From assembly GCA_020853635.1 (NCBI GenBank), contig JADYYN010000181.1:1-48746 (forward strand): a DNA stretch of 48,746 nt. The letters are read 5' to 3'. The DNA is from Gemmatimonadaceae bacterium. Lineage in GTDB: Bacteria; Gemmatimonadota; Gemmatimonadetes; Gemmatimonadales; Gemmatimonadaceae. Each line of letters starts with the position of its first letter. Position 1 is the first letter of the stretch. Position numbers and translations under genes: made by a program. This document shows, in pieces, positions 19,979 to 44,099 of the stretch. The notes below the pieces were generated by a model. That model saw nothing but the letters and a program-made list of their open reading frames with translations. It ran no database searches and was not told where the DNA came from.

Positions 19979-21376
19979 ATGACCGACCATACCCGCAACC
20001 GCCGTCCCTACGCGAACGTCCTCGAGACCATCGCGTGGACCCCGCTGGTCCGCCTCTCGCGCGTCACGCAGGGCATCAAGACGCCGGTCTACGGCAAGGC
20101 GGAGTTCTTCAATCCCGGCGGCAGCGTGAAGGACCGCATCGGCTTGCCGATGATCGAGGACTTCGAGCGCTCGGGTCTGCTCAAGCCCGGCGGCACGATC
20201 GTCGAGGGCACGAGCGGCAACACGGGCGTGGGCCTCGCGCTCGCGGCGGCGCTCAAGGGTTACAAGTGCATCTTCACCATGCCCGACAAGATGTCGCAGG
20301 AGAAGGTGCGACTCCTCAAGGCCTTCGGCGCTGAGGTGATCATCTCCCCGACGGCGGTGCCGGCGGATCATCCGGACAGTTACACGTCGATGGCGAAGCG
20401 GATCGCGGCCGAGACACCGAACGCCGTGCTGGCGAACCAGTTCTACAACCAGGTGAACCCGCAGGCGCACTACGACACCACGGGTCCGGAGTTGTGGGAG
20501 CAGACGGAAGGGCGGATCACACATTTCGTCGCCGGCGCGGGAACGGGTGGCACGCTCACCGGAACCGGGCGCTATCTCAAGGAGAAGAACCCGAAGGTGC
20601 AGATCGTCGGCGCCGATCCGGTGGGATCGATCCTCGCCGAAGTGTGGCGATCGAACGGTGCCAACAAGCCGCAGGGCGCACCGTACAAGGTGGAAGGCAT
20701 CGGTCAGGACAAGATCCCGGGCACGCTCGATCTCTCGGTCATCGATGAATACCAGACGGTGAGCGACCGCGATGCGTTCGCGATGGCGCGCCGACTCACG
20801 CGCGAGGAAGGGTTGTTCGTCGGCGGTTCGGCGGGACTGATCGCGCACGCGGCGCTGTCGGTCGCGCGTCGCATCAATGATCCGGACGCCTGCGTGGTGA
20901 CCGTGCTCTGCGATACCGGCGAGCGGTACCTCTCGAAGGTGTTCAACGACGAATGGATGCGCGAGAACCAGATGCTCGACGCGGAGAAGATGACGCTCGG
21001 GCAGTTGCTGAGTGCGAAGGGCGGTGACATCCCCGCGCTGGTGAACACCACGCCGGGCGCGTCGGTGCGGCAGGCACTCGGGCTCATGAGCCTGCACAAC
21101 GTCTCGCAGCTCCCGGTGATGGACGGTGCGAACTGCGTGGGCTCGGTGAGCGAGAGCGTGCTGAGTGTGCGCGGTCTTGAGGACACCAAGGTGTTGGAGC
21201 GCACGGTAAGCGACGTGATGGATTCGCCGTTCCCGGTGGTGGATGCGCAGATGCCGGTGGACGCCGCCGTGAAGATGCTCGGCCGGAACAATCCGGCGGT
21301 GCTGGTGCGCGACCACGGTACGGTGCAGGGGATCCTGACGCGTTCGGATCTGCTGCAGTTCCTGATGGCGCGATGA
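19979..21376 (+). CDS. Cystathionine beta-synthase with CBS-pair domain
   Basis: PLP enzyme of transsulfuration: serine (or O-acetylserine) + homocysteine gives cystathionine. The 465 aa consist of a fold-II PLP domain (1-320) and a C-terminal pair of CBS motifs (about 340-465). The PLP lysine is Lys51 in FFNPGGSVKDRIG. The phosphate loop is GTSGNTGVGLALAA, and GAGTGGTLTGTGRYLKEKNP is also conserved. The C-terminal Bateman domain separates it from plain cysteine synthases and probably binds an adenosyl ligand for regulation. A cysteine synthase function cannot be excluded. The stop overlaps ddl (ATGA). Confidence 0.9.
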   Translation: MTDHTRNRRPYANVLETIAWTPLVRLSRVTQGIKTPVYGKAEFFNPGGSVKDRIGLPMIEDFERSGLLKPGGTIVEGTSGNTGVGLALAAALKGYKCIFTMPDKMSQEKVRLLKAFGAEVIISPTAVPADHPDSYTSMAKRIAAETPNAVLANQFYNQVNPQAHYDTTGPELWEQTEGRITHFVAGAGTGGTLTGTGRYLKEKNPKVQIVGADPVGSILAEVWRSNGANKPQGAPYKVEGIGQDKIPGTLDLSVIDEYQTVSDRDAFAMARRLTREEGLFVGGSAGLIAHAALSVARRINDPDACVVTVLCDTGERYLSKVFNDEWMRENQMLDAEKMTLGQLLSAKGGDIPALVNTTPGASVRQALGLMSLHNVSQLPVMDGANCVGSVSESVLSVRGLEDTKVLERTVSDVMDSPFPVVDAQMPVDAAVKMLGRNNPAVLVRDHGTVQGILTRSDLLQFLMAR

Positions 21377-22329
21377 GCGTGCGTCCGTTGCGGATCCTGG
21401 TGCTCAAGGGCGGCGACTCGTCGGAGCGCGAGGTGTCACTCTCGAGCGGTACTCGCGTGAGTGCGGCGCTCGCGACGCGGGGACACACCGTGTTGGAGGC
21501 GGATCCCTCGGGCGATCCGCTCGCGGTGTTGCCGTCGGCGAAATCCGTGGATGTAGTATGGCTCGCATTGCACGGCGGGACCGGCGAGGACGGGACGATC
21601 CAAGCGTTGTTCGAGCTCGCGGGCGTGACGTACACGGGCAGCGGGCACCTCGGCAGCGCAATCGCAATGGACAAGGACCTGTCCAAGATCCTGTTCCGGG
21701 CGGCCGGGGTAGGAACGGCGGACTGGTGGATGCTGCGCGCAGGCGAGCCGACGGACTGGCGGACGCCGGCGTACGTGGACCGTGCGGTGGCGGCACTTGG
21801 GCTTCCGATCATCGTCAAGCCGTCGAAGCAGGGGTCGACGGTCGGGCTCGGACTCGTGAAAGCGACGGAGCAGCTGGTCCCGGCGATCATCGAGGCGTTC
21901 AAGCACGATGACGAGGTGATGCTGGAGGCGTACGTTCCGGGGCGGGAGTTGACGGTGGGCGTCTTGGGGGATTGGGTGATGCCGGTTGGCGAAATCATCC
22001 CCAAGCACGAGATTTACGACTACGAGTGCAAGTACACGGCGGGGATGGCCGACGAGCTGTTCCCGGCGCCGCTCCCCCCGGCGATCCGCGATGAAGCGCA
22101 GCGACAGGCGCGACTCGCGTATGCGGCACTCAAGTTGCGCGGATGTGCGCGGATCGACTTCCGCTTGCGTCCTGATGGCGGGCTTTTCTGTCTTGAAGCG
22201 AACACGTTGCCTGGGATGACGGGGACGAGCCTCGTTCCGCAGGCGGCGCTGGCGGATGGTGTGGACTTTCCGGAGTTGTGCGAGCGGATCGCGCTCGACG
22301 CGCTGCGGATTCGGGGAGAACAGGAATGA
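21373..22329 (+). CDS. ddl: D-alanine--D-alanine ligase
   Basis: ATP-grasp enzyme making the D-Ala-D-Ala dipeptide for peptidoglycan. The 318 aa show the family motifs: VLKGGDSSEREVSLSSG at the N-terminus, ALHGGTGEDGTIQ, YTGSGHLGSAIAMDK, IIVKPSKQGSTVGLG and EAYVPGRELTVGVLG. The metal-binding end is ARIDFRLRPDG followed by EANTLPGMT. The serine/tyrosine specificity loop (EIIPKHEIYDYECKYTAG) is typical for D-Ala. It is coupled upstream to the CBS gene and downstream to the QueE-like gene by ATGA overlaps. Confidence 0.96.
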   Translation: MSVRPLRILVLKGGDSSEREVSLSSGTRVSAALATRGHTVLEADPSGDPLAVLPSAKSVDVVWLALHGGTGEDGTIQALFELAGVTYTGSGHLGSAIAMDKDLSKILFRAAGVGTADWWMLRAGEPTDWRTPAYVDRAVAALGLPIIVKPSKQGSTVGLGLVKATEQLVPAIIEAFKHDDEVMLEAYVPGRELTVGVLGDWVMPVGEIIPKHEIYDYECKYTAGMADELFPAPLPPAIRDEAQRQARLAYAALKLRGCARIDFRLRPDGGLFCLEANTLPGMTGTSLVPQAALADGVDFPELCERIALDALRIRGEQE

Positions 22330-29988: not shown

Positions 29989-31485
<1,497 letters not shown>

Positions 31486-31512
31486 CGGAGGACCCTCGTC
31501 AGTGCGGGCGGT

Positions 31513-31995
31513 TCAGCCGCGTGCGAGGAGTCGCGTGCGGCGTAGCTCGAGCGCGGCCAGCACGCCGAGGATGGTGATGGAGACGGCGGAGATGGCGCAC
31601 CAAGGGCAGAAGGTCTTCAGGATGAAGAACTCCGCGTACTTGAGGCGCAGGGTGAAGAGGATGGCGGGGTAGATGAGGGCTGCGAGTGCCAGCGCGGGGC
31701 CGCGTCGGTCCGCACGGTCCCCTGTCGCGCCGACCAACGCAACGATGACGATGAGCGTGTACCCGATCGCGCCGATGAGCGCGACGTCAACACCGAGGAA
31801 CCAGCTCCACGAGGAGAACTGCACCGCGGCGCAACCGCCGGTGCCGCCACAGGCCAACGCCCCTGCCTTGCCGAGTTTCCAGAGGTGCAGATAGGTGGCG
31901 ACGAACGCGTTCGCGAGCGCCATCACTGCCATGATCTGACGATAACTCAGACCAAGGATGCCGTCACGCGGCGCGGAAGGGACGGAGGAGCTCAC
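31513..31995 (-). CDS. Vitamin K epoxide reductase (VKOR) family protein
   Basis: A 160-aa inner-membrane protein with about four transmembrane helices. It has the VKOR cysteines: a loop pair Cys49/Cys55 (CGGTGGC) and the quinone-side CPWC (Cys130, Cys133). These proteins reoxidise a thioredoxin-like partner and drive periplasmic disulfide formation. No fused or neighbouring thioredoxin domain is seen. The start chosen is GTG 31995, 7 nt below the hexamer TAGCTT (minus strand, 32008-32003); an ATG far upstream (32073) would add 26 residues that look unlike the family. The upstream barrel gene encodes a protein with a Cys pair. Confidence 0.85.
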   Translation of the reverse strand: MSSSVPSAPRDGILGLSYRQIMAVMALANAFVATYLHLWKLGKAGALACGGTGGCAAVQFSSWSWFLGVDVALIGAIGYTLIVIVALVGATGDRADRRGPALALAALIYPAILFTLRLKYAEFFILKTFCPWCAISAVSITILGVLAALELRRTRLLARG

Positions 31996-32075
31996 CGGAG
32001 GAAAGCTAATCGCAATCGCCGACGAGGACGACCGTGTGCCGTCGCCATGGCCGGCGAGGAGTGGCCATCGCACAC

Positions 32076-33377
32076 TCAGCCGCCGAGTTCGTCGAGTCGC
32101 GGGTTCACGATGGTGTTGTAGATGGACCCGAACGTGAAGCTCAGTCCGACGGACCCACCGTACCGGTACGATGTCGCGAGGGCACGCTGTCGTGTGAGGA
32201 CTTCGTCATCGGTGGCGTCGCCGCGCGGCAGGTAGAGCTGGTCGTTGACCTTCGCGGCTTCGCCACGGAGTTCGAGCGAGAGGCCGCGGGAGATACGGAA
32301 CGTGGCGCGCCCGTTGAAGCTCAGGTTGTATGCGTCGTTGTTGTGCAGGAACCGGAAGTACCGCAGTGAGGCGTCGACTGTGCCCCAGGCGAGACGAGAC
32401 TCGCCCGCCACGATGGCTCGGGCGACCGGGCGCGTCTCCGAGAGTCGTCCGAAGACGGTCTCCTCCGCGTAGTTATACCGCCGCGCTCCCACGGCGACGA
32501 GGGCGATCATCTGTCGGCTGGTCGCTTCCCGCCACGGGAAGACATTGTACTCCGCACTCACGTCCACCGCGCCGTACGCGTCCTGGTTGCGGAACTCCGA
32601 GAGCCCGCCCGACACCCGGGTCCCGACGGACCAGTGGTCACTGATCGACTTGACCAGTCGACTGTTCACATCGACGCTGCGGAGGATAAACGTGCGCTCG
32701 GACCCGTCCGACAGCTTGAACGAGTTCGCCCGGTACTCGCTCTGCGCGTGGAACGTGTACTTCCAGATCTCGGTCACGCGCGTGACATCAATGGAAGGAT
32801 TGACCTGATAGTTGCTCGACCGGCTCTCGGCGTTGGCGCTGCCGTTCACGCGTGCGCGGTACACCCAGAAGTTCCACGGATCGTTGACCGACGACAACAC
32901 GCTGGGTGCATCGTCCGTGGGCGCGGTGTACCGCACCGCGAAACGCGCGGCCTCGCTGGAGCGCATGGCGAACGGCACCAAGCCGAGTTGCATCACCCGA
33001 GCGAGCTCTCGGCGACGCATGTCCTCGCTCGAATTGGGCGCGACGAACGCGACGAGTGTGTCGCTTCGCGCGGCGTATCTGCGGCGACCGAGGAACCCGA
33101 TGGTGTACTCCGTACCGCCGGCTCCCGTGCCGAGCCCGGTCACCAGTACGTGTACGTCGGCGTCGAGACGGTCGAGCGTGAACAGCGCGAACGGGAGCTC
33201 GGTGACGAGGAAGTTCCGATCGCAGCCGCCCGTGGGGCAGTCGAGGAACACCCGGAGGCGCGACGGCGTCGCGGTCGAGTCTTGGGCGGTCGCCGACGAG
33301 CCGACAGCGAACACGAGCGTGAGTAACGCGGCGAAGCGCGCCGCGAAGAGGCGGGCAGAACGGAGCATGAGGGGCAT
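32076..33377 (-). CDS. Outer-membrane beta-barrel protein with Cys-pair N-terminal domain, copy A
   Basis: A 433-aa exported protein (from ATG 33377: signal peptide RLFAARFAALLTLVFAVGSS). An N-terminal globular part has the pattern VFLDCPTGGCDRNFLVTELP and DADVHVLVTGLGTGAGGTEY. About 270 residues of alternating aromatic strands follow, as in outer-membrane barrels, ending FGSIYNTIVNPRLDELGG. The Cys pair C-x4-C probably forms a disulfide. It is a clear paralogue of the gene at 39604. TATGCT (33389-33384, minus strand) lies 6 nt before the ATG, so the mRNA may be leaderless. I know no function; family members appear unnamed. Confidence 0.8.
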   Translation of the reverse strand: MPLMLRSARLFAARFAALLTLVFAVGSSATAQDSTATPSRLRVFLDCPTGGCDRNFLVTELPFALFTLDRLDADVHVLVTGLGTGAGGTEYTIGFLGRRRYAARSDTLVAFVAPNSSEDMRRRELARVMQLGLVPFAMRSSEAARFAVRYTAPTDDAPSVLSSVNDPWNFWVYRARVNGSANAESRSSNYQVNPSIDVTRVTEIWKYTFHAQSEYRANSFKLSDGSERTFILRSVDVNSRLVKSISDHWSVGTRVSGGLSEFRNQDAYGAVDVSAEYNVFPWREATSRQMIALVAVGARRYNYAEETVFGRLSETRPVARAIVAGESRLAWGTVDASLRYFRFLHNNDAYNLSFNGRATFRISRGLSLELRGEAAKVNDQLYLPRGDATDDEVLTRQRALATSYRYGGSVGLSFTFGSIYNTIVNPRLDELGG

Positions 33378-33440
33378 TAGCGAAGCATACGCGCGAGCCG
33401 CCCTCAGTGTTGTACCGCGAAACACGCCGACCAGCCGAGT

Positions 33441-34454
33441 CTATTCCGTGTGCCGCAGCCCCAATCGCACGATCCGGTCGAGCAGTTTCGGGTACGCGAG
33501 CCCGTCGTGCGCCGCCGCCTGTGCGAACTCCTCCTCGCGCGCGATGTCGGGGTTCGGGTTCGCCTCGAGGAAATACGTGCGCCCCTCACTGTCGAGGCGG
33601 AAGTCGATGCGGGCGTAGCCCGTGAGCTCCAGGATGCGGTAGATGCGCTTGCTGTCATGCAGCAGACGCTCCTCGCCGCCATCGGGCAGTCCCTTCGCCG
33701 CGCGGATCACCACACCCTTCCGCGCCTGATAGTCGGGGTCGTGCTTGAGTCGCGCGGTCGCGATGAGCGGTGCGTTGGGCTCGGACTTCTCGGTGAGCAA
33801 CTCCCACGGCGTGAACGCCGCAAGCCGGTCGTTCCCCAGCACACTCACATATAACTCGCGCCCCTCGATGAACTGTTCGGCGATGGCGTCGGTGCCGATG
33901 CGCTCGTGCACGAAGCGTACGCGTTCGACCAGCTTCTCGTCGGAGTCGACCACCGAGGCCTGCGAGATGCCCAGCGACGAATGCTCGATGAGTGACTTGA
34001 CGATGAGAGGGAACGCGAGGTGACGCGGCCGTTTGACTTTGCGTCCGAGCGGGAACACCGCGAAGTCAGGGACACGGATGCGGTGATACGTGAGCAGCTT
34101 CTTGGAGAGCGCCTTGCCGCGCGACAGCATGAGGCCGCGCGGATTGCAGCCGGTGTACGGCACCTTGATGAGCTCGAGATACGCCACGACGTTGTGGTCA
34201 TAGACCGTCTCGCCGTGGAACTCCTCGAGCAGGTTGAACACGATGTCGGGCTTGACCGCGTCCACCGCCTCCTTGATGGGCCGCAGCTCCCACTGCACGC
34301 CGAGCACGTGCACGTCGTGCCCGATCTCGCGCAGCGTGGAGATCACGTCGAACTCGGTCTTCACCTCGAATGCTTCGCGCTTGCTCAAGGCATCGGCATC
34401 GTCCGGCGGGACCAGATCCGGGTGCGTCAGCACCAGAATGGTGAGCCGCTTCAT
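33441..34454 (-). CDS. ATP-grasp ligase, D-Ala-D-Ala-ligase-like
   Basis: A 337-aa ATP-grasp enzyme with the Ddl arrangement. The N-terminus has ILVLTHPDLVPPDDAD and IVFNLLEEFHGE, then PYTGCNPRGL and the ATP-binding lysine Lys153 (PLIVKSLIEHSSLGIS). EQFIEGRELYVSVLG follows, and the metal-binding end is ARIDFRLDSEGRTYFLEANP with NPDIA. The catalytic residues for carboxylate activation are present. It probably joins an amino acid or peptide carboxylate to an amine; the substrate is unknown. It overlaps the zinc peptidase gene by 4 nt (ATGA) and follows tldD-tldE, which suggests peptide modification. It is distinct from the housekeeping ddl at 21.4 kb. Confidence 0.88.
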   Translation of the reverse strand: MKRLTILVLTHPDLVPPDDADALSKREAFEVKTEFDVISTLREIGHDVHVLGVQWELRPIKEAVDAVKPDIVFNLLEEFHGETVYDHNVVAYLELIKVPYTGCNPRGLMLSRGKALSKKLLTYHRIRVPDFAVFPLGRKVKRPRHLAFPLIVKSLIEHSSLGISQASVVDSDEKLVERVRFVHERIGTDAIAEQFIEGRELYVSVLGNDRLAAFTPWELLTEKSEPNAPLIATARLKHDPDYQARKGVVIRAAKGLPDGGEERLLHDSKRIYRILELTGYARIDFRLDSEGRTYFLEANPNPDIAREEEFAQAAAHDGLAYPKLLDRIVRLGLRHTE

Positions 34455-35479
34455 ACGGCGATCCAGTCCCGGCGTCCCTGGCCAACGAGGAAGCCCATCG
34501 TGCGCGCGGTGAGCAGCACGAGGAAGTCGGTCAACAGTTGCCGTTCATTGCCGGGAACACGCAGGCGCAGCTCCTTGCAGCGTCCGATCATGTCGCCGAG
34601 CACTTGGTCGAGGGAGAACTGGTATTCACCGGTCCAGCGGGAGACGATGCGGCGGATGTCGCCGCGATGGCGACGGAGGAAACTCGCGGCCGTGGGGCGG
34701 GCGCGATGGCGGGGATCATCGGAGAAGAGGCGTTGCAGGTCATCATCGTACGTCTTCGGATACTCGACCGAATATATCGCCTGCCGATAGGTGTAGTGCT
34801 CGAACAGCGTGCGCTTCATGAGCCGCAGCGGATCGACGACCTCGCGATTGCGATGCGAGGGCGTGACGCCTGCGAGTTCGGTCATGAGCCGGTCGACGTA
34901 CTCGAGCTTCTGCAACGCGGGCCATCCGGCGTAGCGCTTGCGCCAGTCGCTGCGCGGTCGCAGCCACACGGCGAACGTCTCCGCGAAATCCTCATCGGGA
35001 TGGCTTTGCGCGTACCAGCGACGCAGATGCTGTACGTAGCGCTTGCTCGCCGGGTTGGGGCGATAGGCGTCGGGATACTTGATGGACGATTTGCCGAAGA
35101 GTCGCTGCCACTCGCGCCGCCGATGCAACTGGTAGCCATGTTGGATGGCGTGTCCGCATTCGTGGCGGATGATCTTCATGCACTCGTGATGTGTGCCGCC
35201 CTCCACCTCGATGAGCTGCGTGCGTTCGAGCTTCATGAGTCGCGGGTGCAGCAGGTAGAACGGCACGGCGAAACCCGAGACGCCGCCCGGCGAGAACCAC
35301 TCGTCGGAGACCCAGACGTGCGGCTTGAGCTTGAGGCCGCGACCCTCGAGCTCGTCATGCAACTCATCGACGCAGCCCTGCACCCAGGTACCCTCAAGCC
35401 GGAGCCCGAGGTCCTTGAAGCGCATCAACAACAAACGCTCATCGGTCCATTGGGCCCACGGGTACCTGGAGTTGGGCAT
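34451..35479 (-). CDS. Putative zinc-binding metallopeptidase
   Basis: A 342-aa protein with the zinc motif HECGH (106-110) in MKIIRHECGHAIQHGYQLHR and a probable third ligand Glu167 in DEDFAETFAVWL, as in gluzincin-like peptidases. No signal peptide or membrane segment is visible. It is rich in Arg and Trp. It matches in layout the 'putative zinc-binding metallopeptidase' proteins that accompany ATP-grasp genes. The substrate is unknown. It starts 7 bases after the tldE stop and overlaps the ATP-grasp gene by 4 nt, so it works in the same unit. Confidence 0.8.
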   Translation of the reverse strand: MPNSRYPWAQWTDERLLLMRFKDLGLRLEGTWVQGCVDELHDELEGRGLKLKPHVWVSDEWFSPGGVSGFAVPFYLLHPRLMKLERTQLIEVEGGTHHECMKIIRHECGHAIQHGYQLHRRREWQRLFGKSSIKYPDAYRPNPASKRYVQHLRRWYAQSHPDEDFAETFAVWLRPRSDWRKRYAGWPALQKLEYVDRLMTELAGVTPSHRNREVVDPLRLMKRTLFEHYTYRQAIYSVEYPKTYDDDLQRLFSDDPRHRARPTAASFLRRHRGDIRRIVSRWTGEYQFSLDQVLGDMIGRCKELRLRVPGNERQLLTDFLVLLTARTMGFLVGQGRRDWIAV

Positions 35480-35486
35480 CAGTCGG

Positions 35487-36905
35487 TCAGACCGCGTCCG
35501 ACAGGCTGGTGAAGCTGAAGTCCCTGGCTTTCAATGTGGGTACCACACTGCCACCCTCGGCGACGCGCACGGACGGACCGACAGCTTCGAGATTGTTGAG
35601 CAGGAAGAGCGGCGAGTCGTTGAAGCGGAAGTTCTTGATGGAGCGCGAGATCCTGCCGTTCTCAACGAGGAAGGTGCCGTCGCGCGTGAGACCGGTGTAG
35701 ACGAGTGTGCGCTGGTCCACCGCGCGCAGGTACCAGAGGCGTGTGACGAGTACGGCGCGTTCTGTGTTCTTGATCATCTCGTCGAGTGACGACGCCCCAC
35801 CGAGCATCTTGAGTCCGCCGCCGAATCCACCACCACCGGTGGGCGTCACGCCCTTCCGCTGCGCCCAGAACCGCGTGTAGGCGAGTTGTTTGAGCACCCC
35901 GTTCTCCACCCAGACCTGTCGACCGGCGGGCAACCCATCCCCGTCGAACGGTGCCCCGAGGATCTGCGGATCGGCGGGGTCCGTGAGCAGCGTGACGCGC
36001 GAGTCCATGATGGACTGCCCGAGCTTGGTCCCGCCGCCGCGCACGCTGAACGGTGAGCGCCCTTCGTCGGCGGAGCGCGCGTTCATGGCACCGCGCACCG
36101 AGCCGATGAGATCCGACACCGCCTGCGGCTCGAATATCACCGTGTACCGACCCGGCTCGATCGCCTGCGGATTGCGCGAGGCGCGCGATTTCTCGATCGC
36201 GCGCGTGGCGATGCCGGCGAAGTCGATCTTGCTGAAGTCGTTCTCGTCGGCGCCGATCCACCCCGACCCGGTACCGTCGTTGGTGCGCACCGTGAGTGTG
36301 TAGTTGGCACCCGTGCTGCGATGATACGCGAACAACCCCGCGCTAGTGCCCAACGCCGTCGCGCGCGCCGAACATTCGATGAAGCCGGCGACCGTGAGAT
36401 CCTTCGCACGCCGCGCGGGCTCGAGGGCTGTGAGTGCGGCCTTCGCACGATCCTCGGCGCTCAGGTTCGCGGTGGAGTCGAACCACGCGGGGATGGTGGC
36501 GTAGGTCTGCGGTCCGAGCTCGGGCATGAGTTCGGGATCGTCCGGTGCCAAGCGCGCGAGCGCTTCGGACTGCGCGACGGCGCGCGCCAACCCCTCGGGC
36601 GAGACGTCGTTGGTGGAGACACTCGCGCGCTTCTTGCCGACGACCGAGGTGATGGAGATCGACGCGTCGTCGGTGATGCCGGAGGTCGACATCTGGTTGT
36701 CGGCGAATCGGAGGTTCGTGTCATACGAACTGCCCACACTCACGCGGCAGGCATCAGCCTTGGAGAGCTTGAGCGCGCGCTGCACGATGTCCTCACACTC
36801 GGCGCGCGACAGGACGAGCGCTTCGTCCATCACGCCGTGGCGAAGCGCGGCGTCGTGCGCGAGCAGACGCTTGGGCGCGTCGGGAATTCGATGCAGCGTG
36901 CTCAC
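35487..36905 (-). CDS. TldE/PmbA-type subunit of the TldD/E peptidase
   Basis: A 472-aa homologue of TldE/PmbA, the non-catalytic partner of TldD. The N-terminal domain reads LSRAECEDIVQRALKLSKAD, with SYDTNLRFADNQMSTSG. The central part has VRTNDGTGSGWIGADENDFS and EPGRYTVIFEPQAVSDLIG. The C-terminus ends with NFRFNDSPLFLLNNLEAVGP. It lacks HExxxH. Start is GTG 36905 in a GTGA overlap with tldD; the first codons (STLHRIPDAPKRLL) contain no signal peptide, although TldD carries one. An alternative Met lies at residue 26. Extended upstream frames read over tldD and are spurious. Confidence 0.9.
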   Translation of the reverse strand: MSTLHRIPDAPKRLLAHDAALRHGVMDEALVLSRAECEDIVQRALKLSKADACRVSVGSSYDTNLRFADNQMSTSGITDDASISITSVVGKKRASVSTNDVSPEGLARAVAQSEALARLAPDDPELMPELGPQTYATIPAWFDSTANLSAEDRAKAALTALEPARRAKDLTVAGFIECSARATALGTSAGLFAYHRSTGANYTLTVRTNDGTGSGWIGADENDFSKIDFAGIATRAIEKSRASRNPQAIEPGRYTVIFEPQAVSDLIGSVRGAMNARSADEGRSPFSVRGGGTKLGQSIMDSRVTLLTDPADPQILGAPFDGDGLPAGRQVWVENGVLKQLAYTRFWAQRKGVTPTGGGGFGGGLKMLGGASSLDEMIKNTERAVLVTRLWYLRAVDQRTLVYTGLTRDGTFLVENGRISRSIKNFRFNDSPLFLLNNLEAVGPSVRVAEGGSVVPTLKARDFSFTSLSDAV

Positions 36906-38527
36906 AGTGTGCGCCCCGTGTTGATGACGTTGATGTTCTTGAAGCGCACCGGCGGACATCCGTGGCTCACGGCGTTGCTCTGGCCGGGCTGGCCCTTGCC
37001 GTCGTTGAAGGTGCCGCCGAGTTCGTAGGAGGACTTGCCGCCGAGCAGATCGACGGCGTTCCAGAAGTCCGGCGTGCGCATCACGTAGGCGACATCTTTG
37101 AGCTGACCAACGATCGTGCCGCTCTTCACCTCGTAGCAGACCTGTGCGCCGAACTGCGCGTTGTAGCGCTGCTGGTCGATGGAGTACGACGAGCGGCCGA
37201 TCATCACGATGCCCTTGTCGGTCGCGGAGACGATGTCGTTGAGCGAGCGATCGACCTTCTGGTCCGGGACGATCGAGACATTGGGCATACGCTGGAACGC
37301 GACGTCGCCCCAGCTCTGCGCATACGAGCAGCCGTGCGAGCGCACGGGCATGTTGTTCTTCTCGTACCAGGGGCGCAGCCACTCGGCTTGTTCGCGCGTG
37401 GTCTGATAGTCCCAGAAGATGCCGTTCTTGACGATGTCGAACGTCTCTGGCTTCACGCCGTCGTCGTCGTAGCCGATGGTAGCGAGCGCGTTGGGCTCCG
37501 AACGATCACCGCGGATGGTGAGATGGTCGGGCCCCAGTCGCAGCTTGCCGAGCACATCGTTGGGCGGTGCGATGAACGAGGTGCCGGCGTAGTTGGCTTC
37601 GTAGCCCATCGCGCGGTCGAGCTCGGTGGGATGCGCGATCGACTCGTGGATGGTGAGGAAGAGCTGCGAGGGATGCAGGATGAGATCCCAGCGCCCTACA
37701 TCGACGGGGCGAGCGGTGAGCTTCTCACGCGCCTGCTCGGCCCACACGGTGGCGTTCTTGACGATGTCGTTCTCGAGCACGTACTCCCAGCCGCGGCCCA
37801 TCGGTTGCACGACTTCGGGACCGCGCGTGGCGGTCTCGGTGCGATCGTCGGAGACCGCGGTGCACGACATGGTGACCCAGCTGCGCACGACGTCCTGCGT
37901 GATCATCGAGCCTTCGGAGTTCGCGTAGGAGCGTTCCTCCTTCACGAACGAGAGGTTCGAGTTGACGAAGCGGATGTTCTTGACCTTCATCGCTTCGGCG
38001 TTGGCGGCCATGAGCAGTGCGACCTTGTCTTCGACGGCGATCGACCACGGGTCGATGGTGTAGCTCGACTTCCACGTGGCGTTGGGATGCACGTCGGTAG
38101 GCGCGAGTCGCACGAGGCGATCGCGAGCGACGCGATTGGCCTTCGCGAGCGCGACCGCCTGTTTGGCGGCGCGTGCGACACCGTCCTTGGTGAGCGAGCG
38201 CGTGGCAGAGAATCCCCACGTGCCATCGACGAGCACGCGGACGCCGCAGCCGATGGTGTCGGTGTCGGAGACCTGCGTGACCTGTTGCTCACGCGTGCCG
38301 AGGTTCTGGCGGCGCTGGCGCTGGATGCGGGCGTCGGCCCAGGAGGCGCCGGCGAGCTTGGCGGCGGTGAGGGCTTCTAATAGAAGGACCTTCACCTGCG
38401 GGTCGGGCTCGGTGCGCTCGTTGAGGATCGGCGAGCGGGTGCCGGTGGCATCGACGCGGCGCGCGGTCAGCGCGAGGGCGCTGGCGGCGAGGCCGGTCGT
38501 GGCGAGGAAGTCGCGACGGGAGGTCAT
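36902..38527 (-). CDS. TldD-type metallopeptidase subunit with Tat signal
   Basis: A 541-aa homologue of TldD, the zinc subunit of the TldD/E protease that cuts peptides by a non-standard groove. The zinc motif HESIAH (HExxxH, about residues 291-296) is in FLTIHESIAHPTELDR. Family regions CGVRVLVDGTWGFSATRS and TIGYDDDGVKPETFDIVKNG are present. The N-terminus TSRRDFLATTGLAASALALT is a textbook twin-arginine signal, so it is exported folded. E. coli TldD is cytosolic, so this location is different. Start ATG 38527 is defined by the Tat signal. It leads the leftward operon tldD - tldE - zinc peptidase - ATP-grasp. Confidence 0.92.
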   Translation of the reverse strand: MTSRRDFLATTGLAASALALTARRVDATGTRSPILNERTEPDPQVKVLLLEALTAAKLAGASWADARIQRQRRQNLGTREQQVTQVSDTDTIGCGVRVLVDGTWGFSATRSLTKDGVARAAKQAVALAKANRVARDRLVRLAPTDVHPNATWKSSYTIDPWSIAVEDKVALLMAANAEAMKVKNIRFVNSNLSFVKEERSYANSEGSMITQDVVRSWVTMSCTAVSDDRTETATRGPEVVQPMGRGWEYVLENDIVKNATVWAEQAREKLTARPVDVGRWDLILHPSQLFLTIHESIAHPTELDRAMGYEANYAGTSFIAPPNDVLGKLRLGPDHLTIRGDRSEPNALATIGYDDDGVKPETFDIVKNGIFWDYQTTREQAEWLRPWYEKNNMPVRSHGCSYAQSWGDVAFQRMPNVSIVPDQKVDRSLNDIVSATDKGIVMIGRSSYSIDQQRYNAQFGAQVCYEVKSGTIVGQLKDVAYVMRTPDFWNAVDLLGGKSSYELGGTFNDGKGQPGQSNAVSHGCPPVRFKNINVINTGRTL

Positions 38528-38656
38528 CTGGGGACTGGGTCCTGTGAGGGGGCGACCGGGTATCCGGACTCGCGGGGGAGAATGTCGCGTCAACGCAGGG
38601 TGATGGCAAACGTTGGCGTTCGGAGGTCTCCGCGCGCTCGCGGCGGGGGGTCGCTG

Positions 38657-38685
38657 TTGACCAATGATAGCTAAAAAGCTATCGT
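38657..38685 (+). promoter_or_regulatory. Toxin-antitoxin promoter with operator
   Basis: -35 TTGACC (38657-38662), 17-bp spacer, -10 TATCGT (38680-38685). The perfect palindrome GATAGCT-AAAA-AGCTATC (38666-38683) fills the spacer and covers the first bases of the -10. The ATG of the antitoxin is 5 bases after the -10, so the mRNA should be leaderless. Confidence 0.75.
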
Positions 38686-38690
38686 TCGGG

Positions 38691-39023
38691 ATGTCGGATG
38701 AACTCGAGTACGCGGCAGCTCCCATCGTTCGTCTCGTTCGCGAACGCGCCGGGTTGAGTCAGCGCGCGCTCGCTGAGCGTGCGCTGACGGCGCAGTCCGT
38801 GGTGGCCCGCATCGAGTCGGAGGACACGAGTCCCACGTGGGATACGCTGCAGCGACTCGCTCGCGCCGGGGGATTCGAGATCGCCGCGCAGCTGGTGCCT
38901 CTTGTGGAGCCGGAGACGCACATGTTGGCTGATGTGGCGCGCATTCTTTCGCTCACACCCGAAGACCGCCTACGCGAAGTGGCGAACATCTCGCGCTTTG
39001 TCTCCGCCGCAGTGCGCAGATGA
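38691..39023 (+). CDS. XRE-family HTH protein, probable antitoxin
   Basis: A 110-aa protein with an N-terminal Cro/C1-type helix-turn-helix: VRLVRERAGLSQRALAERAL, then SVVARIESEDTSPTWDTLQR (about residues 10-55). A C-terminal tail (LADVARILSLTPEDRLREVA) could bind the partner. Start ATG 38691 is 5 nt after the -10 element, so initiation is probably leaderless; a start at 38664 would sit inside the promoter. It overlaps the nucleotidyltransferase gene by 4 nt (ATGA). The palindrome in its promoter is the natural autoregulatory operator. Antitoxin role is inferred from gene order. Confidence 0.85.
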   Translation: MSDELEYAAAPIVRLVRERAGLSQRALAERALTAQSVVARIESEDTSPTWDTLQRLARAGGFEIAAQLVPLVEPETHMLADVARILSLTPEDRLREVANISRFVSAAVRR

Positions 39024-39517
39024 CCACGCCGATCCTAGATCCCGAGCGCTTGGTGAAGGCGCTCGATGCGGAGGGGGTCCGATTCGTGTTGGTCGGCGCA
39101 CTGGGTGCGCGACTCTTCGGGTTCCCCCGAGTGACAGCCGATGCGGACATCACCCCTGCGATCGATGCAGACAACATGGAGCGACTCGCCCGCGCGCTTC
39201 GGGCACTGCATGCTCGCGTGTTCACGGAGTCGATCCCCGAGGGTCTTTCGTTCGACGTGAGCGCCGCGATGCTTGCGCGGTCCTCACTCTGGAACCTGAC
39301 GTGCGACGCGGGTCGACTCGACCTCGTCTTCGAACCGCTGGGCACGAGAGGCTTCGACGATCTCGCGACGACCGCTGTGCCGTTCGACCTCTTCGGGGCA
39401 CGCGTGCTGGTCGCACCATTGCGCGACACGCTGCGCATGAAGGAAGCGAGTGGTCGACCGCAAGATCGCCAAGACGCGATGCTCATTCGCTCGATGCTCC
39501 AGCAGCAAAACGGATGA
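39020..39517 (+). CDS. Nucleotidyltransferase-fold protein, probable toxin
   Basis: A 165-aa protein with a minimal nucleotidyltransferase core: FVLVGALGARLFGFPRVTAD with DADI, matching the G(G/S)xA...G...R.T.D.D pattern of AbiEii/MNT-type and DUF6036-like enzymes (Asp41, Asp43). LDLVFEPLGTRGFDDL and LRDTLRMKEASGRPQDRQDA follow; the K-x-A-x-x-R-x-K/Q-D end is typical of this fold. Paired with an XRE regulator, it is likely a toxin that transfers a nucleotide to a tRNA or protein; the target is unknown. A non-toxic enzyme cannot be excluded. Confidence 0.8.
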   Translation: MTTPILDPERLVKALDAEGVRFVLVGALGARLFGFPRVTADADITPAIDADNMERLARALRALHARVFTESIPEGLSFDVSAAMLARSSLWNLTCDAGRLDLVFEPLGTRGFDDLATTAVPFDLFGARVLVAPLRDTLRMKEASGRPQDRQDAMLIRSMLQQQNG

Positions 39518-39545
39518 GCAAAGCGCGGCGGTCCTGAACACCGCA

Positions 39546-39557
39546 CGAAACGTTTCG
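39546..39557. promoter_or_regulatory. LacI-family-like palindrome
   Basis: CGAAACGTTTCG is a perfect 12-bp palindrome with the central CG and AAA/TTT arms common in LacI/GalR-family operators. It lies 46 bases before the GTG start of the barrel gene. No LacI-type gene is in the window. Confidence 0.4.
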
Positions 39558-39603
39558 GACGTCGCTGACATCGAAGGGTGGTCCTCTCACCCTCGAGTGT
39601 CCT

Positions 39604-40917
39604 GTGTATCAGTTGCTGGCTGGTGTCGTTCTCGCGGCCGTCCTGCTCGTTCCACTGCAGGCGCATGCGCAGACCAGTGGACAAACTGCCGCACCGCCGA
39701 GCGACTCGACCCAGAACGCGGCGCTCCGTGCGTTCCTCGACTGCAACGAGCGAGGCTGCGATCGCGACTTCCTGGTGACCGAGATGGTCTGGGTGAACTG
39801 GATGCGCGACCGGCTCGATGCCGACTTCCATTTGTTGGTGACGTCGCTGACCACCGGCTCCGGCGGACGACAGTATCAGGTGGTAGCGATTGGGCAGCGC
39901 GCGTTCGCGGGGAAGACGGACACGCTGATGTTCACCACACAGCCCAACGATGCGGATGACACCATCCGTCGTGCGCTGCTTCGGAGCGTCGGGCAGCTGT
40001 TGCTGCCGCACGCGGCGCGCGGTGCCCTTGGGTCACGTCTGACCATCGCGTACAGCCCTCCTGACAGCAGTACATTGGCGTCCGCAGCTCCAGCCAACGA
40101 CCGCTGGGACTTCTGGACGTACAGCATCTCGCTGAACGGCTTCCTCAATGGGGAATCGCAACAGACGTTCAGCGAGGTGTGGAACGAACTCTCCGCGAAT
40201 CGCACGACGGAGCGTTGGAAGGTGCGTGTAGGCGCCAACATCTCGTACAACGAGTCGAAGTTCACGCTCGACAGCGGCGAGACGTTCACGGCGATCCGTC
40301 GTTATGCCGGAGGGTCCGCGTTGGCCGTGCGCAGCGTGGATGACCACTGGTCGCTCGGGGGTCGCCTATCCGCTTCACGCTCGGACTTCTCCAACACGGA
40401 TCTCGTGTCGCAGGCTGCAGTGGCCGCCGAGTGGAACTACTTCCCCTACAAGGATTTCACTCGGCGCAAGTTCGCCGTGTTGTACACCGTGGGTGTGCGC
40501 GATCTCCGGTACCGCGAGGTGACGATCTACGACCGACTCCAGGAGCGTCGTCCACTTCACACGCTCGACGCCTCGTTCGGCGCGCGCCAGCCGTGGGGTG
40601 AGGCGAACATCACGCTGTACGGAAGCCAGTATCTCGACGGCCTGAAGTACTACAACGCCGGCGTCTGGGGAAACGTGGAAGTGCGACTCGGTCGCGGCCT
40701 CTCGTTCAATGTGGATGGGCGGCTCACACGCGTGCGCGATCAGCTCTTCCTCCCGCGCGGTGGACAGTCCGACGCAGAAGTGATCGCGCGGCAGCAGGCG
40801 TTGGCGACCAACTACCGCTACTTCGCGTTCTTCGGTGTGCGCTACCAGTTCGGGTCGATCTTCAACTCGGTGGTGAACCCGCGGTTCGGGAACATCTCCG
40901 GGGCGGATGATTTCTGA
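39604..40917 (+). CDS. Outer-membrane beta-barrel protein with Cys-pair N-terminal domain, copy B
   Basis: A 437-aa exported protein (signal peptide LLAGVVLAAVLLVPLQAHAQ). It shares the full layout of copy A at 32.1-33.4 kb: FLDCNERGCDRDFLVTEM, DADFHLLVTSLTTGSGGRQY, DHWSLGGRLSASRSDFSNTD, QLFLPRGGQSDAEVIARQQA and the C-terminal FGSIFNSVVNPRFGNISG. The Cys pair (DCNERGCD) and its spacing are conserved. Start is GTG 39604 just before the signal peptide, 86 bases after the toxin gene. The molecular role is unknown. It may be expressed under the palindrome at 39546. Confidence 0.8.
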   Translation: MYQLLAGVVLAAVLLVPLQAHAQTSGQTAAPPSDSTQNAALRAFLDCNERGCDRDFLVTEMVWVNWMRDRLDADFHLLVTSLTTGSGGRQYQVVAIGQRAFAGKTDTLMFTTQPNDADDTIRRALLRSVGQLLLPHAARGALGSRLTIAYSPPDSSTLASAAPANDRWDFWTYSISLNGFLNGESQQTFSEVWNELSANRTTERWKVRVGANISYNESKFTLDSGETFTAIRRYAGGSALAVRSVDDHWSLGGRLSASRSDFSNTDLVSQAAVAAEWNYFPYKDFTRRKFAVLYTVGVRDLRYREVTIYDRLQERRPLHTLDASFGARQPWGEANITLYGSQYLDGLKYYNAGVWGNVEVRLGRGLSFNVDGRLTRVRDQLFLPRGGQSDAEVIARQQALATNYRYFAFFGVRYQFGSIFNSVVNPRFGNISGADDF

Positions 40918-41077
40918 TGATCGCCCGCGGTGATCGCTTGCACCCTGTGGCGTGAACCCTTAGGGCCGCACCCGACGCAACTCCCCTCACAGTTCGCAAG
41001 GCAGCTCCCGACTGTTTGCCGTGTCCGACGCATGTATCCATCACGCGTTGGTCATCCCATTCATCGGAGCTTTCCCA

Positions 41078-41710
41078 ATGCGTTTCGTTCGCAGCCTCGT
41101 CCTCGGCGGTCTCCTCGCGTCTCTTGCTGCGCCGCTTGCGGCACAGTCCAGTGCGGAGGGTGTGTGGATGGTGCGCGTGCGCGCCCTCTCGCTCACTCCG
41201 GCGGACAAGTCGGATGCGATCCCGTCGCTCAGTGTGCCGGAAGATGCGATCACCGTGAGCACGAAGATCTTCCCGGAGATCGACATCTTGCGGTTCTTCG
41301 GCACGCACTTCGCGGCAGAACTCGTGCTGACGTATCCGCAGGAACACGATGTGGAACTCAGCGACACCAAGATCGGCACGTTCAAGCATCTGCCGCCGAC
41401 ACTGCTCGCGCAGTACCACTTCATCCCGGACGGGACGTTCCGTCCGTACGTCGGGGCCGGTGTGAATCTCACACTCATCTCGGACGTCGATATCAACGTG
41501 CCGGGTGTGGGTGCACTGGACCTCGAAGACAGCTCGATCGGCTACGCGGTGCAGCTGGGCGCCGACATCAAGCTCCGGCCGAAGCAGTTCCTCAACATCG
41601 ATGTGAAGAAGGTGGGGATCGGGTCGGATGTGCTGTCGGCGGGCAGCAAGGTGTCGGCCGTGAAGGTCGATCCGTGGCTGATCAGCGTGGGGTACGGGTT
41701 CCGGTTCTGA
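41078..41710 (+). CDS. OmpW-family outer-membrane protein
   Basis: A 210-aa protein with a signal peptide (RSLVLGGLLASLAAPLAAQS) and an eight-stranded barrel of the OmpW type. WMVRVRALSLTPADKS is at the start, GTFKHLPPTLLAQYHFIPDG and RPYVGAGVNLTLIS are the family signature, and it ends VDPWLISVGYGFRF with a C-terminal aromatic residue for barrel assembly. OmpW proteins form narrow hydrophobic channels. Start ATG 41078 has GGAG (41066-41069) as ribosome binding site. The 160 bases before it contain no gene. Confidence 0.92.
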   Translation: MRFVRSLVLGGLLASLAAPLAAQSSAEGVWMVRVRALSLTPADKSDAIPSLSVPEDAITVSTKIFPEIDILRFFGTHFAAELVLTYPQEHDVELSDTKIGTFKHLPPTLLAQYHFIPDGTFRPYVGAGVNLTLISDVDINVPGVGALDLEDSSIGYAVQLGADIKLRPKQFLNIDVKKVGIGSDVLSAGSKVSAVKVDPWLISVGYGFRF

Positions 41711-41736
41711 CGCTGATGCAGTTGGTGTATCGGGTT

Positions 41737-41789
41737 CGGAAGCCTACGGCAAGCCGTGGAAATCCCTCGCGGCGAGCCGTAGGCTTCCG
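41737..41789. repeat. Perfect 14-bp inverted repeat between ompW-like gene and tex
   Basis: CGGAAGCCTACGGC (41737-41750) and GCCGTAGGCTTCCG (41776-41789) enclose 25 bases and end 6 bases before the tex ATG. There is no T-run. It may terminate ompW-like transcripts, or fold in the tex leader and affect translation. Confidence 0.55.
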
Positions 41790-41795
41790 CATCCT

Positions 41796-44099
41796 ATGGC
41801 CGACCCACTCGCTCCCGTTCTCATCGCCCGCGTCGCCGCCGAGCTTTCGCTCGCGCCCGCGCAGGTCCAACGCACCCTCGCGCTGTTCGACGAAGGTGCC
41901 ACGCTCCCGTTCATCGCTCGCTACCGCAAGGAAGTCACCGGTGGCCTCGACGAGGTGCAGCTCCGCGACGTCCGCGAGCGTGCGGAGTACCTGAAGGAGC
42001 TCGAGGACCGCCGCGCGGCGATTCTCAAGAGTGTGGAGGAGCAGGGCAAGCTCGACGATGTGCTCAAGGCCGCGATACTCAAGGCCGACACCAAGCAGGT
42101 ACTCGAGGACCTGTATCTCCCGTTCAAGCCCAAGCGGCGGACGCGGGCGATGATCGCGCGCGAGCGGGGGCTCGGGCCGCTCGCGGAGGCGCTCTGGTCG
42201 GGATCCGTGGACGACGCAGCCGCGATGTCGGCAGCGGCGGGTTACGTGCTCGCCGGCCTGGACGGCAAGGAGAGCGAGGTGCCCAGCCCCGAGGCCGCGC
42301 TGCAAGGCGCGCGCGACATCCTCGCCGAGCAGTTGAGCGAGGACGCGGCGGTGCGTGGGTGGGTGCGTGAGGTCACGCGCGCGAAGGGCGTGGTGACGAG
42401 CCAGGTGGTGGCGGAGAAGCGCCGCGACGACTCCAAGTTCAAGGACTACTTCGAGTATCGTGAGCCGCTGGGGACCATCCCGTCGCATCGCATGCTCGCC
42501 ATCCGTCGCGGCGAAGCCGAGGGCGAGTTGTTGTGGCGCGTGGAAGCGCCGGTGGATGAGATCACGGCGCGACTGACGCGCGAGACCGTGGGTGATCGCA
42601 AGGCGGTGCAGCAGCTCGGGCTGGTGGCGCAGGACTGCTACAAGCGCCTGCTTGCGCTGGCGATCGAAGGAGAACTGCGGCTCGAACTCAAGACACGTGC
42701 GGACGATGAGGCGATCACCATCTTCGGCCGTAACCTCGAGCAGTTGCTGCTCGCGTCACCGGCAGGCGAGAAGCGGGTGGTGGGTCTCGACCCCGGCTTC
42801 CGCACCGGTGTGAAGGTCGCGGTGGTGAGTCAGACCGGTGCGCTGGTGCATACCGATACGCTGTACCTGCATCAGGAGGATCGCTTCGCCGGCGCTATCC
42901 GTGCGCTGGTGGCGCGGTTCGAGCCGGAGCTGATCGCGATCGGCAACGGTACGGCGAGTCGCGAGACGGAAACGATGACCAAGGCCGCCCTCCGCGAGCT
43001 CGATACACCGCGTCCGCAGGTCGTGGTAGTGAACGAAGCCGGCGCCTCGGTCTACTCGGCGAGTGACATGGCGCGGGCGGAGTTCCCGGAGCTTGATGTG
43101 TCGCTGCGCGGTGCGGTGTCGATTGCGCGCCGTCTGCAGGATCCGCTGGCGGAGTTGGTGAAGATCGACCCTAAGAGCATCGGCGTGGGGCAGTATCAGC
43201 ACGACGTGAACCAGACGCGGCTCAAGCAGCGACTGGATGACACGGTGATGAGCTGCGTGAACCGTGTGGGTGTTGAAGTGAACACCGCCTCGGCAGCGCT
43301 CTTGGGTTACGTGGCGGGCATCGGGCCGTTGTTGGCGCAGTCGATCGTCTCGCTGCGCGACAAGGAGGGCGGGCTCAAGAGCCGCGACGCACTGAAGGCC
43401 GTGCCGCGCTTGGGCGCGAAGGCGTTCGAACAGGCGGCGGGCTTCCTGCGGGTGCGTGGTGGCGCGCATCCGCTTGACGCGAGCGCGGTGCACCCCGAGC
43501 GCTACGCGCTGGTGGAGCGCATGGCGGCCGACCTCGGCGCGGAAGTGCGTGCGTTGGTGGGGAACGAGAGTCTTGTTGAGAGCATCGCGCTGGAGCGCTA
43601 CGTGAGCGGCGATGTGGGCATGCCGACGCTGCGCGACATCGTGAGTGAACTCAAGAAGCCGGGGCGCGATCCGCGTGCGGCATTCGAGCCGCCTGCGTTC
43701 CGCGACGACATCACCAAGCCGAGTGACTTGGCGACGGGCATGGTGCTCGAGGGTGTGGTGACCAACATCGTCGCGTTCGGTGCGTTCGTGGACATCGGGG
43801 TGCACCAGGATGGGCTGGTGCACGTGAGTCAGTTGGCGGATCGGTACGTGCGCGACGCGAACGAGGTGGTGAAGGTGGGGCAGCGCGTGCAGGTGACGGT
43901 GCAGAGTGTGGATCTGCCGCGGAATCGGATTGCGTTGACGATGAAGAAGGAGGGCGGGGCGGGGGGCGCGGGTGGGAAGCCTGTGCGGACGGATGCGAAG
44001 GCGGGGGTGAAGCCTGTGGGGAAGGGTGTGGTGAACAAGGCGCCGGCGTTCGTGCCGCAGAAGGGGGCGGTGGCGCCGAATGGGATGCGGTTCAAGTAG
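41796..44099 (+). CDS. tex: Transcription accessory protein Tex
   Basis: A 767-aa RNA-binding protein homologous to Tex/Spt6 core. The N-terminus reads IARVAAELSLAPAQVQRTLA, followed by ATLPFIARYRKEVTGGLDEV. The YqgF-like RNase H-fold domain begins VVGLDPGFRTGVKVAVVSQT. HhH motifs (AALLGYVAGIGPLLAQSIVS and LKAVPRLGAKAFEQAAGFLR) follow. The S1 domain spans about residues 648-717 (GMVLEGVVTNIVAFGAFVDI). The C-terminal tail is basic and Gly-rich. Start ATG 41796 lies directly below a hairpin and lacks a clear ribosome binding site. Identification is certain. Confidence 0.96.
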   Translation: MADPLAPVLIARVAAELSLAPAQVQRTLALFDEGATLPFIARYRKEVTGGLDEVQLRDVRERAEYLKELEDRRAAILKSVEEQGKLDDVLKAAILKADTKQVLEDLYLPFKPKRRTRAMIARERGLGPLAEALWSGSVDDAAAMSAAAGYVLAGLDGKESEVPSPEAALQGARDILAEQLSEDAAVRGWVREVTRAKGVVTSQVVAEKRRDDSKFKDYFEYREPLGTIPSHRMLAIRRGEAEGELLWRVEAPVDEITARLTRETVGDRKAVQQLGLVAQDCYKRLLALAIEGELRLELKTRADDEAITIFGRNLEQLLLASPAGEKRVVGLDPGFRTGVKVAVVSQTGALVHTDTLYLHQEDRFAGAIRALVARFEPELIAIGNGTASRETETMTKAALRELDTPRPQVVVVNEAGASVYSASDMARAEFPELDVSLRGAVSIARRLQDPLAELVKIDPKSIGVGQYQHDVNQTRLKQRLDDTVMSCVNRVGVEVNTASAALLGYVAGIGPLLAQSIVSLRDKEGGLKSRDALKAVPRLGAKAFEQAAGFLRVRGGAHPLDASAVHPERYALVERMAADLGAEVRALVGNESLVESIALERYVSGDVGMPTLRDIVSELKKPGRDPRAAFEPPAFRDDITKPSDLATGMVLEGVVTNIVAFGAFVDIGVHQDGLVHVSQLADRYVRDANEVVKVGQRVQVTVQSVDLPRNRIALTMKKEGGAGGAGGKPVRTDAKAGVKPVGKGVVNKAPAFVPQKGAVAPNGMRFK

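Follow-up and report, generated by a model that had tools for sequence, protein, structure and literature searches.

In Escherichia coli, TldD and TldE make up one heterodimer that is active only when both are present (PMC5810440). Some substrates of the twin-arginine translocation (Tat) pathway leave the cytoplasm as heterodimers in which one partner bears the signal (PMC10924467), and ATP-grasp ligases can be encoded together with a protease, as in RimK/RimB and RloC/RloA (PMC12239564). Here we describe a gene cluster in a 48,746-nucleotide stretch of DNA from a Gemmatimonadaceae bacterium (contig JADYYN010000181.1, positions 1 to 48,746; hereafter the window), in which genes for a TldD, a TldE, a zinc peptidase (pep) and an ATP-grasp ligase with the fold of D-alanine–D-alanine ligase (lig; Ddl for the enzyme family) lie head to tail on the minus strand. 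An earlier note on this DNA had proposed that the four genes form one common system for ligating and trimming peptides. We found instead that the cluster is two modules, a probably exported TldD/TldE protease and a portable peptidase–ligase pair, which stand in tandem in and near Gemmatimonas.

Two modules in one gene cluster

We compared 80 loci, the best peptidase homologues from one search of genome contigs with the peptidase, and scored gene co-occurrence in 119 genomes of a single class, for which the p values are descriptive, the genomes not being independent events. The ligase gene lies directly downstream of the peptidase gene in 79 of the 80 loci, which is every locus whose contig continues, and the two genes overlap by exactly 4 nt in 71 of these 79. 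Among the class genomes, the ligase is present in 29 of the 30 that bear the peptidase (Fisher p = 2.8e-22), but TldD is associated with neither the peptidase (p = 0.50) nor the ligase (p = 0.27). Within the family the result for peptidase and TldD was the same (9/12 against 7/9, p = 1.0). That the peptidase goes with the ligase and neither goes with TldD therefore points to two modules. The pair occurs without tldDE in all Alphaproteobacteria and in most Gemmatimonadota loci, and tldDE occurs without the pair in three genomes (G039, G090 and G116; G, L, C and f numbers are our handles for genomes, loci, contigs and families). Co-directional tldDE genes upstream of the pair are confined to L009, L010, L012, L018, G008, G131, G139 and the window, that is, to Gemmatimonas and close kin, with a spacing that ranges from a few bases up to 1.1 kb (L010) or 2.1 kb with two extra open reading frames (ORFs; G008).

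If the four genes nevertheless formed one system, the ligase and peptidase would make a peptide that the exported TldD/TldE then trims. The genes are indeed co-directional and nearly contiguous in the window, G139, G131, L009, L012 and L018, but against this stand the statistical independence of TldD and the pair, the occurrence of each without the other, and the gaps of 1.1–2.1 kb even inside the near clade. The scattering of the genes across related genomes, an outcome that the note itself had named as refuting, therefore largely refutes the four-gene idea, which we now regard as highly improbable. What survives of the proposed ligation and trimming system, and is strongly supported, is a conserved peptidase–ligase gene pair, not a unit of all four genes. 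The topology question that had been raised with it, how a Tat-exported TldD could work with a cytoplasmic-looking peptidase and ligase, largely vanishes once the modules are taken apart.

The arrangement of the cluster is as first described, with all four ORFs in the given positions and −4, +7 and −4 nt between successive genes. The first gene on the minus strand, tldD (36902..38527), encodes a TldD-family metalloprotease subunit of 541 aa that begins with a Tat-type signal and in which PF01523, PF19290 and PF19289 all exceed their cut-offs. Next comes tldE (35487..36905, minus; 472 aa), a TldE/PmbA-family gene whose product lacks a signal and whose GTG start overlaps the tldD stop by 4 nt (GTGA); its closest solved structures are PmbA/TldE proteins (e.g. 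5nj5_B), and Pfam places PmbA_TldD domains 1–3 in both TldD and TldE. After a 7-nt gap (35480–35486) follows pep (34451..35479, minus; 342 aa), a zinc peptidase of the Peptidase_Mx family (PF15887; 32.3 bits against a gathering cut-off of 27), which overlaps lig (33441..34454, minus; 337 aa) by another 4 nt (ATGA). The lig product matches Dala_Dala_lig_C (PF07478) with 90.6 bits against a cut-off of 24. The source assembly is Gemmatimonas-like and 83.7% complete. A relative, G139 (L180), has the same four-gene order, and its TldD, peptidase and ligase are each 97% identical to those of the window.

The peptidase–ligase pair

The pair recurs in Gemmatimonadota, in Alphaproteobacteria and in one Planctomycetota genome, and is carried by many Bradyrhizobium genomes. 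In other genera and families the two genes are still adjacent at 32–44% identity; they are convergent in G036 and G012, and numerous genomes in families f2 and f10 have them in reversed order, with the ligase followed by a Peptidase_Mx protein. Both reversed-order peptidases that we scanned (L118 and L123) carry N-terminal double zinc ribbons. The adjacency is thus kept through order reversal and remodelling of a partner, which is strong evidence for functional coupling of peptidase and ligase. In loci L116–L132 (e.g. L123:7700-8635) a Peptidase_Mx gene sits directly after that of a Ddl-like ligase.

In a concatenated peptidase and ligase tree, built by a quick method and rooted at the midpoint, the 25 alphaproteobacterial pairs form a single clade; its sister, a Gemmatimonadota locus, lies within Gemmatimonadota diversity. 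Given this nesting, a single transfer of the pair from Gemmatimonadota into Alphaproteobacteria would be the simplest reading. The distance matrices of peptidase and ligase also correlate strongly (r = 0.97, 51 loci), so peptidase and ligase probably move together as one unit. Plasmid carriage was rejected: the peptidase gave 0 matches in 72,556 plasmids, and the ligase one remote match on a plasmid (30% identity, Thioflavicoccus). No other neighbour was common to at least 6 of 25 diverse peptidase loci, and the flanks of the pair are common only within narrow groups. The earlier note had seen no precursor of a ribosomally synthesized and post-translationally modified peptide (RiPP) nearby, and our flank comparisons of related loci agree, revealing no linked short peptide gene and no conserved small gene beside the peptidase–ligase loci. 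A RiPP or graspetide cluster with a linked precursor was rejected, as the flanks hold no sequence conserved across taxa.

An AlphaFold model of lig (predicted local distance difference test score 89.9; predicted template-modelling score, pTM, 0.88) has Ddl enzymes as its closest PDB folds (template-modelling scores 0.77/0.84). The equivalents of DdlB K97, K144, E180, E187, K215, R255, D257 and N272 are kept in all 80 ligase homologues, and that of E270 in 79 of the 80. In lig these include the ATP-phosphate lysine K114 (= K97; 34113..34115, minus), R282-I-D284 with the catalytic arginine and an Mg ligand (= R255 and D257; 33603..33611, minus), and the Mg ligands of E297-A-N299 (= E270 and N272; 33558..33566, minus). 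With the ATP and Mg residues invariant, we expect the ATP- and Mg-dependent chemistry of lig to be intact. The substrate pocket has changed more. The positions of DdlB E15, Y216, G276, S281 and L282 are substituted in lig and in most of the 80 homologues, that of S150 is substituted in 68 (12, lig among them, have serine), and that of H63 is kept in half. In EcDdlB, a phosphorylated D-cycloserine inhibitor lies in contact with E15 and R255, and D-Ala2 with Ser281 and Tyr216 (PMC5717164). The replacements in the D-Ala pocket are partly acidic, several of them acidic or aromatic, and the second-substrate pocket of lig is itself acidic (E308, E309). A genuine Ddl encoded 11 kb away in the window (21373–22329) keeps all sixteen positions mapped and scores 185 bits against PF07478, versus 92 for lig. 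We therefore rejected Ddl membership, given the scores and the replacement of E15, S150, Y216, S281 and L282 in most homologues; judged by its residues, lig is very likely an ATP-grasp ligase but not a Ddl, and it is predicted from its family to form amides. Such ligases of the pair, in Bradyrhizobium as in Gemmatimonadota, are easily misnamed ‘D-alanine–D-alanine ligase’ by similarity. Elsewhere in the source genome (contig C177; L157, 6948–9631), two adjacent Ddl-like ATP-grasp proteins are encoded, one of which is a fusion with a SET methyltransferase domain (PF00856), and this tandem is possibly another unnamed ligase system.

All 61 aligned peptidase homologues match PF15887 (E<1) and keep HExxH. 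In pep this zinc motif is HECGH (H106–H110; 35150..35164, minus), of which H106, E107 and H110 are invariant in the 61 sequences, as are Y156, H160, E163 and E167. The stretch YAQSHPDE (Y156–E163; 34991..35014, minus) likely provides the catalytic tyrosine and the third zinc ligand; its Tyr-x6-Glu spacing, also present in the reversed-order zinc-ribbon form, we take to be that of the same two residues in lethal-factor/PPEP zincins. A fold search with the pep model, which is of moderate quality (pTM 0.66), placed PPEP-1 and the lethal factor core at the top with an E of only ~0.3, and the pep profile found no sequence relatives in the PDB. The modelled resemblance to lethal-factor/PPEP (M34) zincins may be that of a remote core at most, and nothing in it is toxin-like. 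Our literature search found nothing on the function of PF15887.

By analogy with other ligases encoded beside a protease, the most likely role of the pair would be that lig forms an amide bond on a substrate other than D-alanine and that its peptidase partner trims or removes the product. In this mechanism lig would use ATP to activate a carboxylate as an acyl phosphate and would then couple it to an amine that, as most D-Ala-binding residues are lost, is probably not D-alanine and is possibly cationic. The zinc peptidase would cut, mature, edit or reverse the product in the cytoplasm, and amide ligation would then run as a cycle that is reversible or edited, much as in RimK/RimB. A more specific version holds that the pair is a reversible tagging system, moved as a unit from Gemmatimonadota to Alphaproteobacteria, in which the acidic pocket of lig would allow a cationic amine on a macromolecule, such as a polyamine or lysine side chain, to be joined to a carboxylate, and the peptidase, guided by zinc ribbons in the distant form, would remove or mature the tag. 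We consider this version rather unlikely.

ATP-grasp enzymes often make dipeptide or N-acyl amino acid metabolites, and lig might make such a compound as an osmolyte or signal that the peptidase recycles, with no protein target at all. A two-gene unit that lacks a dedicated partner or precursor would suit a small-metabolite pathway of this kind; the double zinc ribbons of the distant peptidase form are, however, more typical of macromolecular contacts, and no transporter, acetyltransferase or other gene is conserved nearby, so that we hold this explanation to be possible, if doubtful. The combination of a Ddl-fold ligase with a zinc peptidase also shares its logic with VanA and VanX, which would suggest a cell-wall module that produces a D-Ala-D-X (depsi)peptide through the ligase and clears D-Ala-D-Ala through the peptidase. 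In D-Ala-D-Lac ligases, acceptor choice is governed at the position equivalent to DdlB Y216, and 48 of the 80 ligase homologues have histidine there. Yet the D-Ala-binding E15 and S281 are mostly substituted, lig falls far under the curated Van and Ddl cut-offs listed (e.g. 59.6 vs 775 bits for VanA), the partner is an HExxH protein of PF15887 rather than a VanX-type dipeptidase, and no additional neighbour gene is shared. On scores, residues and partner we rejected a Van-type resistance ligase, and a Van-like role in the cell wall appears improbable.

Taken as a whole, the explanation towards which we lean, with modest confidence, is one of two modules, a Tat-exported TldD/TldE and a cytoplasmic cycle of peptidase and non-D-Ala ligase. 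Several observations weigh against it. The linkage of tldDE to the pair in eight genomes, at the level of the genus, may have causes beyond synteny. The ligase is able to occur by itself, having no adjacent peptidase in 2 of 33 ligase-bearing genomes (G066 and G118), and the correlation between the peptidase and ligase distance matrices is partly that of species relatedness. Prediction of peptidase specificity is weak, as pep has no significant PDB match and only a moderate model. We regard the peptidase–ligase pair as the more interesting of the two modules: it is compact, conserved and portable, and could reveal new amide-forming and amide-cleaving chemistry.

The TldD/TldE module and neighbouring genes

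The N terminus of TldD, MTSRRDFLATTGLAASALALTARRVDA, consists of a twin-arginine motif and a moderately hydrophobic stretch. We assign residues 1–28, MTSRRDFLATTGLAASALALTARRVDAT (38444..38527, minus), as a putative Tat-type signal peptide, in which the RR motif, hydrophobic stretch and cleavage region of a Tat substrate are all present; here and below, signal calls rest on hydropathy and motif reading rather than on a dedicated signal-peptide predictor. By the same reading, TldE, the peptidase and the ligase have no recognizable signal. An RR-x-F-(L/I/V) motif of Tat type starts all 30 TldD homologues from Gemmatimonadota genomes and named relatives, and nearly all of 29 TldE proteins lack such an N terminus (an RR motif is present in L147 and L154, and the start in L140 is ambiguous). 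The asymmetry reported by the earlier note, a Tat signal on TldD and none on TldE, is thus recurrent in Gemmatimonadota, and its description of the peptidase and ligase as cytoplasmic-looking holds as well. The HExxxH metal motif of TldD is HESIAH (37631..37648, minus), which aligns on HEAVGH (262–267) of E. coli TldD. At the position of the third metal ligand, with the out-of-frame alignment rows L141 and L144 not counted, TldD and its homologues have aspartate (in an FND/FFD/FGD stretch) where E. coli has Cys454, a substitution already noted for Gemmatimonas TldD (PMC5810440).

As the E. coli heterodimer needs both subunits, co-export of the folded TldD/TldE heterodimer through Tat would be the likeliest route: TldD would supply both the catalytic HExxxH and the Tat signal, signal-less TldE would be carried along, and the exported complex would act on periplasmic peptides by degrading or trimming them. 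Hitchhiking export, which had been suggested for the four-gene system, is made plausible by the recurrent asymmetry but belongs to this separate module. We found no report of Tat hitchhiking by TldD/TldE in searchable papers. If it occurs, many Gemmatimonadota would have in their envelope a protease complex that is familiar from E. coli, and the asymmetry of the two subunits would offer a clean system for testing Tat hitchhiking.

Two further tandem tldD–tldE pairs, in each of which only TldD bears the Tat motif, lie on contig C163 of the source genome (L156, 7301–13543), and similar double arrays are present in G008 (L145) and G108 (L106). Another contig of the source assembly, C219 (L001), holds a second copy of tldD and tldE that is 91% and 86% identical to window 35487–38527, which may reflect strain mixture or contamination of the metagenome-assembled genome rather than a true duplicate.

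Among the neighbouring genes, a VKOR-family gene lies downstream of the cluster (31513–32073) and is conserved nearby in Gemmatimonas relatives only. The cluster is bracketed by genes for two paralogous proteins (32076–33425 and 39604–40917) with a signal-like N terminus and no Pfam family; by eye they resemble an outer-membrane barrel, and they have kin near the cluster in L012, L099 and L180. At 38664–39517, a divergent XRE-type helix-turn-helix gene shares 4 nt with a gene of nucleotidyltransferase-like appearance (by eye, with no Pfam hit), an arrangement with some likeness to AbiE/MNT-like toxin–antitoxin pairs. Rfam gave 0 matches in 30000–42000, and an RNA element was rejected.

Comparison with known systems

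The TldD/TldE module corresponds to the E. coli protease of microcin B17 and CcdA in its pairing of a TldD that has HExxxH with a TldE that lacks the motif and in its three PmbA_TldD domains; E. coli TldD differs in having no Tat signal and in having Cys454 in place of aspartate. With Tat hitchhiker heterodimers it shares the presence of a signal on a single subunit. In the pair, lig has the fold and the ATP/Mg catalytic residues of DdlA/B and differs in the D-Ala-binding residues, most of which are replaced. Within PF15887, the Pfam core covers only residues 104–173 of pep; the regions N- and C-terminal to it are peculiar to this group, and in a sister Peptidase_Mx group zinc ribbons take their place. 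An earlier mention of the pair in the literature is possible. RimK/RimB and RloC/RloA resemble the pair in coupling an ATP-grasp ligase with a protease gene. Their proteases are retropepsin-like aspartic enzymes and their ligases RimK or RimK-related, whereas here a PF15887 zincin is joined to a Ddl-type ligase. The pair is therefore not of RimK/RimB type, and the comparison is one of working mode only.

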